Translations under genes and position numbers: made by a program
Origin: Aquificota bacterium
GTDB lineage: Bacteria > Aquificota > Aquificia > Aquificales > Aquificaceae
Direction: 5' to 3'
Length of the DNA stretch: 64,000 bases
NCBI GenBank assembly: GCA_030549905.1
Contig: JAUQQK010000006.1
Location: forward strand, 39,342-103,341
Notes under the pieces: generated by a model
The model's input: the letters and a program-made list of their open reading frames with translations, nothing else
What the model was told of the DNA's origin: nothing
Databases searched by the model: none
Shown: piece by piece, positions 58,766 through 61,957 of the stretch
How the letters are laid out: every line of letters starts with the position of its first letter
Numbering within the stretch: position 1 is the stretch's first letter

Positions 58766-59491
58766 CTAAAGAAATACCTTCTCTAAGGTAAGTCCGTGAG
58801 CTTTTGCTGTAAAGGGGCAGCTCTTCTTTCCTTGAAGAAATTCCTTTATATCTTCTTCCTTGAGCCTGCCTAAGCCCACATACACAAGACAGCCCACCAT
58901 ACGCCTTACCATGTACCTTAAAAAATTTCTTGCCCTCACACTGAAAAGTATAAGGTCTCCTTCTTTTCTAATGGAGACCTCCTCAATCTTTATTACCGTA
59001 ATCCTCTCCTCTTCCAGTTTGGCAAAGCCAGAAAAGTCATGCTCGCCTGAAAAGAGCCTGCAAGCACTTTCCATGGCTGGAAAGTCAAGCCTGTAGGGAA
59101 TTCTCCAGCAGAAAGGCTCAAGGAAGGGGTCCCTTGCATGGGTGTTAAGGATGCGGTATGTGTAAAGCTTTCCCTTCACCGAATACCTGGCGTTAAAACC
59201 CTCCTGTATCCAGACCCTTTTTATACCCATATCTTTGGGCAGCAGGGAGTTCAGAGCCTTAAGAAGCACGTCAGGCTGAAAGTCTTTATAACCTTTGAAG
59301 TTTGCCACATATTCTTTTGCATGCACTCCCGCATCTGTCCTGCAACAGCCCGTTATCTTAACCTCATGCCCGAAGAGCTTTTCTAAGGATTCTTTTAATA
59401 CCCCCTGCACGGTCCTCAAGCCCGGTTGAATTTGCCAGCCATGAAAGTCCGTGCCTACGAAGGAAAGAAAAAGCACATAGTTAGGCATCAT
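58766..59491 (-). CDS. truA: tRNA pseudouridine synthase A
   Basis: [39 protein letters not shown]. Confidence 0.95.
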
Positions 59492-59940
59492 AAATATCTT
59501 AAAACTTTGAGAAGGCTATCCTCCTTCTCTTTGAACCTTTTCTCTTCCTCCTCTCCCAGCTCATGGTCGTAGCCTAAAAGATGCACAAAGCCATGCAATA
59601 AAAGCCTTTCTACTTCCTCCTCAAAGGTATGCCCCAGCTCCTCCGCCTGCCTTTTTGCCGTATCTACAGAGATTACTATCTCACCCAGTATGTAGGTATT
59701 TCCTACAGACTCTCTGATGGGGAAGGAAAGCACATCGGTAGCCTTATCCTTGTTCCTGTATGCTTTATTTAGCTCTCTTATGGTTTCGTCGCCGGTCAGA
59801 TACAGGCTTAGCTCCGTATCCTTAAAGCCTTCAGCCTCAAGAAGTCTAAGAAGAAGATTTTTCAGCCTTCTTACGCTTAGCTTTGATTTCTCCCTTCTTA
59901 TCAGTATCCTGTTCCTGACTTGCCCTTTCATACTCTTCAT
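59488..59940 (-). CDS. ybeY: Endoribonuclease YbeY
   Basis: [34 protein letters not shown]. Confidence 0.94.
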
Positions 59941-60892
59941 AGGCTTTTATTATCCTTGCCACAATGGGGTGTCTGACCACATCCTCCTCCTTGAACCATA
60001 CAAAGCTTATACCTTCTATACCCTGCAGGACCCTTATGGCTTCCACAAGACCCGACTGCTCCCTCTTTGGCAGGTCTATCTGCGTTATGTCGCCCGTTAT
60101 AACCACCTTTGAACCAAAGCCTATACGAGTTAAAAACATCTTCATCTGCTCTTTCGTAGAGTTTTGAGCCTCGTCAAGGATTATAAAGGAGTCGTTTAAT
60201 GTTCTACCCCTCATGAAGGCAAGGGGTGCAATCTCTATTATGTTCCTCTCAAGCATATAAACTGCCTTGTCGTAATCCACCATGTCGTAAAGAGCATCGT
60301 AGAGGGGTCTCAGGTATGGGTCCACCTTCTCCGCTATGCCACCCGGCAGGAAGCCCAGCTTTTCCCCTGCCTCCACCGCAGGTCTTGTAAGAATTATCTT
60401 ATTTACCCTGTTTGTCTTGAGGTATGAGAGTGCCATTGCCATGGCAAGGTATGTTTTGCCAGTTCCCGCAGGACCTATGCCAAAGGTTATATCGCTGTTC
60501 CTTATGGCATCTACGTATATAGCCTGTGTGTGTGTTTTTGGCACTATTGCCTTTTTCCTGTGGGTTATTAATATTACCTCTTCCTTTCCCTCTTCTTTAA
60601 AGCCTGTCTGGGTTTTTGACTGAAGAAAGTTCTTAGCCCTCTCTCTCACCTCCTGAGCGGTAAGGGTTGTATGCCTTAACTCTCTTATGGTCTCCCTCAA
60701 AAACTCTGTCAGAAGCCTTACCTTATCCTCTTCGCCCCTTATGAGAATTTCCGTTCCACGGGCGGATATTTTCACATCAAAGAGCTGGGAAAAGTATTTG
60801 AGGTTCTCGTCGCCCCTTCCCACGATGGCATAAAACTTTTCATCAAAACTTCCTAAATCCAGCCTTTCTTCAAGCCTTTCTGTCATTTTCAT
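59846..60892 (-). CDS. PhoH-family ATPase
   Basis: [61 protein letters not shown]. Confidence 0.95.
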
Positions 60893-60954
60893 AAATTTAA
60901 CTGCTCACTTTAAATATAGCCCGCTGGATTACTATTTGCAAGGGGGAGTTGCTC

Positions 60955-60982
60955 TTGACAGCCTTTTGAAACTGCATATTAT
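60955..60982 (+). promoter_or_regulatory. sigma70-type promoter (TTGACA-16-TATTAT) for htpX 5' UTR
   Basis: TTGACA 60955-60960, TATTAT 60977-60982; predicted TSS close to 60989. Confidence 0.75.
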
Positions 60983-60988
60983 TAAACA

Positions 60989-61079
60989 GGCACGGGTAAA
61001 ACCGCCCGCTGGGGTCGCCCGTGCTAAGAAAGGCGGTATAGAAATACCCCAGCCCGGGCAAGAGAAAGCCCGGCATCGG
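60989..61079 (+). ncRNA. Structured 5' UTR RNA with three crossing helices (ABCABC) plus hairpin, upstream of htpX
   Basis: GCACGGG 60990-60996/CCCGTGC 61018-61024; ACCGCC 61001-61006/GGCGGT 61032-61037; GCTGGGGT 61008-61015/ACCCCAGC 61046-61053; CCGGGC 61054-61059/GCCCGG 61068-61073. Confidence 0.6.
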
Positions 61080-61087
61080 AGAAAAGC

Positions 61088-61957
61088 ATGGGTTATGCCA
61101 TAAGGAGCGTTATATTGCTGGGTCTTCTTACAGGACTCTTTCTCTTTGTGGGAAATCTCATAGGTGGTAAAACGGGTATGACCATAGCCCTTATCTTGGC
61201 TGGTATTATGAACTTTATAGCCTACTGGTTCTCTGACAGGATAGTGCTTGCCATGTATGGTGCAAGGGAAATACCCTATGAAGAGGCTCCATGGCTCCAC
61301 AGAATAGTGGAGGAGCTGGCTCAAAGGGCGGGCATTCCAAAGCCAAGGATATATCTTGTGCCTATGGAACAGCCAAATGCCTTTGCCACCGGTAGGGGTC
61401 CCTCTAATGGTGCGGTAGCAGTAACCGCCGGCATATTACATCTACTTAACGAGCGTGAGCTAAGAGGAGTGCTTGCTCATGAGATAGGGCATATAAAGAA
61501 CAGAGATGTTTTGGTGGCTACCATGGCTGCCACCATAGCAGGCGCCATATCTTACCTTGTGAATATGCTCCAGTGGTCCCTTCTTCTGGGACACTCAAGG
61601 GATGAGGAGAATAACAATCCCCTTTCCCTCATTGCCAGCATAGCTATGATAATCATAACGCCCATAATAGCCACCATAATACAGATGGCCATATCCCGCT
61701 CAAGGGAGTATATGGCGGACGAGACTGGTGCCATAATCTCCGGAGACCCATTGGCTCTGGCAAGTGCCTTGGAAAAGATACATAACTATGTTTATCAGAT
61801 ACCGGCTGAAGTCAATCAAGGCACCGCTCACCTTTTCATAGAAAACCCCCTGTCCGGTCAGGGCATATGGGAGCTTTTCTCCACCCACCCGTCTACCGAA
61901 AAGAGGATAGAAAGGCTCAAAGAACTGGCAAGAAAGATGGGTGTTTATGCCTACTGA
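61088..61957 (+). CDS. htpX: Membrane zinc metalloprotease HtpX
   Basis: HEIGHIKNRD, QPNAFATGRGPSNGAVAVTAGIL, SREYMADE. Confidence 0.95.
   Translation: MGYAIRSVILLGLLTGLFLFVGNLIGGKTGMTIALILAGIMNFIAYWFSDRIVLAMYGAREIPYEEAPWLHRIVEELAQRAGIPKPRIYLVPMEQPNAFATGRGPSNGAVAVTAGILHLLNERELRGVLAHEIGHIKNRDVLVATMAATIAGAISYLVNMLQWSLLLGHSRDEENNNPLSLIASIAMIIITPIIATIIQMAISRSREYMADETGAIISGDPLALASALEKIHNYVYQIPAEVNQGTAHLFIENPLSGQGIWELFSTHPSTEKRIERLKELARKMGVYAY

Follow-up and report, generated by a model that had tools for sequence, protein, structure and literature searches.

Three helices that follow one another in the order ABCABC define the pseudotrefoil class of RNA pseudoknots (genus 1, subclass 1C), for which a pseudoknot survey counts 51 sequences from RNA STRAND (PMC3390330). 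Guide RNAs of the transposon nuclease TnpB are a second point of comparison. In ISDra2, an IS200/IS605 element, the omegaRNA (or reRNA) overlaps the 3′ end of tnpB (PMC10097598, PMC10278001). Its 5′ stem loop can base-pair with the residues that directly precede the guide, forming a stem-1 pseudoknot that is conserved in Cas12-type guides (PMC10097598). Elements of the IS607 type use GG as their target (PMC6188088), and the TAM of one IS607 TnpB, that of ISFba1, is AGGAG (PMC11061315). The reRNAs described for IS607 TnpBs are derived from RAGATH-18, a long stem with an E-loop/kink-turn that lies outside the coding sequence (PMC11061315). Two further systems show what may become of such parts. 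TldRs are TnpB-derived RNA-guided repressors (mentioned in PMC13418256), and IStrons combine IS607 with a group I intron (PMC4227781).

Here we describe an RNA found as the 5′ leader of htpX in a window of 64,000 nucleotides of DNA from an Aquificota bacterium of the family Aquificaceae. It shares its topological class with the surveyed pseudotrefoils but differs from them (PMC3390330) in that the three helices cross within 64 nt, are supported by covariation and belong to a new family. The same module occurs in the right-end RNA of IS607-type tnpA-tnpB transposons. Our leading reading, about which we are evenly divided, is that the htpX leader is a solo copy of a pseudotrefoil module common to these RNAs, retained as a cis-acting 5′ leader.

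The htpX leader and its fold

The gene behind the leader encodes a membrane M48 peptidase (htpX, 61088–61957, plus strand, as are all features of the leader; PF01435, 9e-41). From 5′ to 3′ the order is promoter, ABCABC module, hairpin, Shine–Dalgarno sequence and ATG. The promoter, TTGACA-16-TATTAT at 60955–60982, matches the consensus at 11 of 12 positions and gives a predicted transcription start at about 60989–60990, the first base of helix A. The core of the leader (60990–61053) consists of three perfect, mutually crossing helices in the order A-B-C-A′-B′-C′. Their 5′ strands are GCACGGG (A, 60990–60996), ACCGCC (B, 61001–61006, with the conserved core CCGCC at 61002–61006) and GCTGGGGT (C, 61008–61015, conserved core 61008–61014). 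Their 3′ strands are CCCGTGC (A′, 61018–61024), GGCGGT (B′, 61032–61037) and ACCCCAGC (C′, 61046–61053). All six strands are supported by covariation. The A-rich linker between B′ and C′ (61037–61046, consensus nAUAnAAAUA) is near-invariant in solo and tnpB-linked copies, and on this pattern it is a possible triplex or ligand site. Behind the core stands a 3′ hairpin, P4 (CCGGGC-aagagaaa-GCCCGG, 61054–61073, arms 61054–61059 and 61068–61073), whose shape is conserved among copies and whose sequence is not. The Shine–Dalgarno sequence GGAG (61078–61081) lies outside the structured part, and no terminator-like site was found on the sense strand of the leader. The first-pass annotation had placed the helices, hairpin, promoter, Shine–Dalgarno sequence and start codon exactly here. 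Divergent from htpX, the window carries PhoH-like and YbeY-like genes, identified by sequence, at 59488–60892; a weak minus-strand promoter lies beside them at 60913–60941.

Is the arrangement more than chance? None of 1000 dinucleotide shuffles of the leader matched the 21 bp of its ABCABC arrangement; any arrangement of this kind with helices of at least 5 bp turned up in just 25 of them. Standard folding is unable to represent crossing helices; the pseudoknot-free minimum-energy fold keeps helix A and the 3′ hairpin. Both covariance models that we built pair helix A only, therefore B and C, which neither model pairs, are an independent test of the fold. Among 93 distinct relatives standard pairs fill 94.3% of pair cells, as against 74.5% when shuffled and 38–54% with slid partners, although these cells are not independent and the counts are inflated, because many copies within a genome are near-identical. 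In the same relatives every one of the 7 pairs of helix A and of the 7 pairs of helix C shows two-sided changes; in helix B one pair of 5 does, with a change from CG to GC. Among 131 solo copies the variable (third) pair of helix C is UA in 67, CG in 57 and GC in 7, the first core pair of helix B is CG in 108 and GC in 23, and neither shows a mismatch; the mean length of helix A is 9.7 bp with cognate arms and 6.05 bp with non-cognate arms. Within 13 orthologous htpX leaders two-sided changes affect 6 of 8 pairs of A, with B and C invariant.

These alignments show that the triple-crossing fold is kept by compensatory change, and on comparative grounds the fold of the htpX leader is real and evolutionarily conserved. 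The first-pass proposal of a structured leader RNA with three crossing helices is thus upheld, with all three helices covarying in the 93 relatives. Its companion idea, that the helices are mutually exclusive and form a switch, was rejected: every copy conserves B and C jointly.

No covariance model in Rfam 15, RAGATH-18 and HEARO included, scored above its gathering threshold on the leader, and relaxed thresholds gave noise only (tpke11 at 17 bits, below its cut-off of 43). This agrees with the earlier remark, made with the suggestion of an Infernal search, that the leader fits no known riboswitch consensus. The main text of a catalogue of Aquifex ncRNAs does not describe the module (PMC4227106), and our search of the open literature turned up no previous description of such a leader, nor any of a TnpB RNA reused as one. 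As judged from these comparisons, the RNA is a family absent from Rfam, with a rare ABCABC topology supported by covariation.

Distribution and tnpB-linked copies

The first-pass annotation had tied its case to the presence of the element upstream of htpX in relatives, and within the window's genus 13 of 14 genomes carry the leader there. At the level of the order, 86 of 112 genomes matched a first covariance model, which was built from 21 sequences; a second model, for which 106 matches were used, detected the module in 90 of 136 Aquificota genomes, representing 24 of 30 genera. Carrying Aquificota genomes hold between 1 and 35 copies. The 35 are in one genome of 1,500,577 bp (G022), where the scores fall off clearly beneath the last copy, and a relative's genome of 1,551,335 bp (G016) has none. 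The second model at full sensitivity found no copies in G071 and G072, which belong to the genus of G022. Six genomes of that genus (G071–G076) lack copies except for one marginal match in G074, and several of them carry a different tnpB subfamily. The contrast of 35 copies with none in six congeners suggests rapid gain or loss.

A pattern scan of species genomes extends the range beyond the Aquificota. Among the matches listed, nearly all hosts are thermophiles, including thermophilic Bacillota; they include Caldanaerobacter, Thermoanaerobacter, Thermovorax, Fervidicola, Tepidanaerobacteraceae, Thermosyntropha, Thermosediminibacter, Carboxydothermus, Caldicoprobacter, Thermodesulfobacteria and one Caldisericum MAG. 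Occurrence across phyla rules out a genus-specific relic. Pattern matches in Demequina and Pimelobacter (L366, L379) fall in coding sequence and were discarded as chance. Two different Bacillota (L361 and L393) have solo leaders before the same gene, with a protein start of MGIVGG...MPHPP, and are a possible pair of orthologous leaders outside the Aquificota. One match lies in a 172-kb viral contig (L438, 3880–3931).

The module occurs in two forms, tnpB-linked (T-type) and solo (S-type). The first-pass annotation knew it as an element of htpX only; it is also part of the presumed right-end (omega/guide) RNA of TnpB transposons. As in ISDra2 (PMC10097598, PMC10278001), the T-type RNA falls at the 3′ end of tnpB, whose reading frame, here of about 550 aa (TIGR01765, 1e-21; TIGR01766, 1e-16), extends over it. 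At one locus (L233) the gene of a serine recombinase, tnpA (PF00239, 2e-26), overlaps tnpB, therefore the element is of the IS607 type. The RNA scaffold ends at the right end of the transposon, with a flank that differs from copy to copy. An additional 5′ hairpin, P0, has the loop CUUGG(U), which by our reading can pair with the right-end (A)CCAGG, much like the guide-adjacent pseudoknot that the 5′ stem loop of ISDra2 can form; both RNAs also have a subterminal 3′ hairpin (PMC10097598), of which P4 in the htpX leader is the counterpart. Unlike ISDra2, with its stems 2–4, T-type RNAs have the ABCABC domain between stem 1 and the right end. They resemble the RAGATH-18-derived reRNAs in belonging to IS607 tnpA-tnpB elements, and the ISFba1 TAM fits their left flank, AGGAGG (PMC11061315); RAGATH-18 itself had no match in the module loci by Rfam search.

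The location at the 3′ end of tnpB and the right-end scaffold fit a TnpB omegaRNA/reRNA, with putative TnpB binding and guiding of DNA cleavage. By their sequence the linked elements likewise fit IS607, with a serine recombinase tnpA, a GG target and no target duplication. TnpB homology stands upstream of 58 of 74 copies with P0 and 1 of 135 solos, where the two types are split by hairpin detection and 25 ambiguous copies are set aside; several of the 16 T-type copies without upstream TnpB look like solos misassigned through a chance hairpin. The htpX copy differs from the ISDra2 omegaRNA in having no tnpB, stem 1 or guide: tnpB is absent near 60990–61087, P0 is absent, and by sequence the copy would not class as an omegaRNA, which has an adjacent tnpB and a stem-1 pseudoknot beside the guide.

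At Shine–Dalgarno sites of the window's genome stand at least seven tnpB elements or remnants of the IS607 type, four with B and C (on contigs C9, C13, C15 and C27; L207, L237, L209 and L208) and three without (C7, C14 and C23; L314, L313 and L312). One tnpB-element remnant in this genome stands immediately before the gene of cytochrome oxidase subunit I. The TnpBs of the three elements without B and C share about 85% identity with the C13 TnpB. The RNAs of these three elements agree with that of C13 in P0, right end and 3′ hairpin, with a simple stem where A and its B/C loop would be, therefore B and C are an optional addition for this TnpB.

The target site is informative. AGGAGG precedes the left ends of full T-type elements. 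At trpS the empty site reads AAAAGGAGG directly joined to CAATTTATG, and the filled site has the element, ending in ACCAGG, between AAAAGGAGG and CAATTTATG; seen as alleles, AAAAGGAGG-CAATTTATGAGA of a close relative corresponds to AAAAGGAGG, the element ending in ACCAGG, and CAATTTATGAGA in the filled form. From this alignment the insertion is exact, at the GG of the Shine–Dalgarno sequence AGGAGG, and without duplication. The T-type element is inserted in sense, and the end of its RNA falls just before the start codon. Such a target explains why copies stand always in sense and just 5′ of a start codon.

Solo copies and their genes

Solo copies have neither tnpB nor P0, and begin at a promoter start point or at the upstream stop codon. 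Some retain a GGTAACCAGG-like right end, and most have no relic of stem 1. A −10-like box that places the start at helix A is found for 60 of 137 solos and 0 of 89 tnpB-linked copies. In G022 all 35 copies stand in sense just 5′ of a start codon, many of them directly behind the stop codon with which the upstream gene ends. The leader of rpoA in this genome abuts the old Shine–Dalgarno sequence, where relatives have stop codon, Shine–Dalgarno sequence and ATG.

The solo-led genes of G022 include those for ribosomal proteins S21, S20, L32, L25, S18 and S11, IF3, EF-Ts, RpoA, Rho, two Hfq, FtsH, Ndk, pyrophosphatase, thioredoxin, GlyA, IlvC, MetE, ThiG and oxidoreductase subunits, and no pathway is common to them. 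Control specific to htpX or to stress, as first proposed, is at odds with this list of varied housekeeping genes. The set might equally mirror a preference of insertion. A second solo in the window's genome (G000:C11:1701–1772, L058) leads infC, the gene of IF3, as in G022. The same gene is also chosen across genera for rho, rpsT and rpmF, as judged from N-termini, either by conservation or by repetition.

A search with one profile, TIGR01766, gave no TnpB match in G056 (18 copies), G014 (3 copies, single contig), G003, G008 and G011, some of the genomes being drafts. Solos keep their pairing, with covariation, even in genomes without a detected TnpB. The distance from the end of the hairpin to the ATG is nearly constant (median 15 nt, interquartile range 13.75–16), U-runs are rare among copies, and the Shine–Dalgarno region is on average 63% unpaired in models that are unable to represent the pseudoknot. 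An RNA thermometer, another of the first suggestions, or a switch that masks the Shine–Dalgarno sequence is unlikely, because that sequence lies downstream of all conserved helices at a near-constant distance.

A proposed role in cis and the alternatives to it

How might a transposon RNA come to lead a housekeeping gene? Within the IS607-type tnpA-tnpB elements of thermophilic bacteria, the module in the right-end RNA may help the interrupted host gene to stay expressed. Solos would derive from such elements, trimmed to the useful part, module and hairpin. As for direction, we infer a transposon origin of the leaders rather than the opposite, from the right ends that some solos retain and from the position of the rpoA leader in G022, though the missing stem-1 relic in most solos speaks against it. 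A solo would work in cis by forming the 5′ end of its mRNA: the heat-stable knot would hinder decay or processing from the 5′ end, insulate the ribosome-binding site directly behind it, and so support constitutive expression of the downstream gene. The Shine–Dalgarno sequence outside the structure, with no terminator seen, would favour such constitutive stabilization or insulation over a ligand switch, and from the sequence features we prefer it with moderate confidence.

A riboswitch, in which pseudotrefoil and AUAnAAAUA linker bind a metabolite or ion and control initiation or decay of housekeeping mRNAs, is unlikely, although it would fit a compact, covarying pseudoknot in a leader whose near-invariant unpaired linker could be a ligand pocket. 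Against it, the downstream genes share no pathway, the Shine–Dalgarno sequence is outside the structure and mostly unpaired in the models, and U-runs are rare. The module moreover occurs in transposon RNAs that share their sequence with a reading frame, and is often operon-internal, right behind a stop codon.

Solos could still be guide RNAs or decoys: TnpB would bind them in trans and either be directed to the gene start or process the mRNA on the 5′ side of helix A. The module is the same as in the tnpB right-end RNAs, some genomes have both, and TnpB is known to cleave the mRNA that encodes it where the omegaRNA begins (PMC10278001). This role is nonetheless quite improbable: the stem-1 hairpin, with a loop able to form the guide-adjacent pseudoknot, is missing from solos, they persist where TnpB is not detected, and TnpBs of about 85% identity have RNAs without B and C.

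Small ribozymes are typically complex pseudoknots, and many operon-internal copies begin at the upstream stop codon, as would suit a self-cleaving ribozyme or nuclease-processing site that gives each mRNA a structured 5′ end. HDV-like ribozymes have the strand order P1 P2 P3 P3′ P1′ P2′, unlike the A B C A′ B′ C′ of the leader. Bases 5′ of helix A are unconserved, and promoter-linked copies have no 5′ segment to cut because the predicted transcription start is helix A itself. We regard this explanation as very improbable. That solos are non-functional relics left where tnpB-linked copies insert, exactly at Shine–Dalgarno sites, is hardly credible given the compensatory changes within 13 orthologous htpX leaders, the promoters at fixed spacing that 60 of 137 solos and none of 89 tnpB-linked copies possess, and the retention of module plus hairpin only.

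The constitutive role in cis can be put more broadly. Thermophiles of several phyla may repeatedly keep the module of a TnpB guide RNA, without the nuclease, as a general 5′ leader of core genes, a heat-stable block of the 5′ end spread by a transposon that inserts at Shine–Dalgarno sequences; we offer this tentatively, a little short of even belief. Like TldR, it would be a domesticated TnpB/guide RNA system, but TldR keeps the protein as a guided regulator, whereas here the RNA part alone would be retained, in mRNA leaders. IStrons, too, are TnpB-family transposons with an RNA module that makes insertion tolerable; they splice out, whereas the leader module remains in the mRNA.

IS607-type TnpB elements that use the Shine–Dalgarno sequence as insertion site explain why copies stand in sense before essential genes. 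The module offers a small, stable knot for structural work, and it makes the protection and initiation of hyperthermophile mRNAs at 70–95 °C testable. Finally, hosts appear here to have adopted the RNA half, not the protein, of an RNA-guided nuclease system, dozens of times in one genome.
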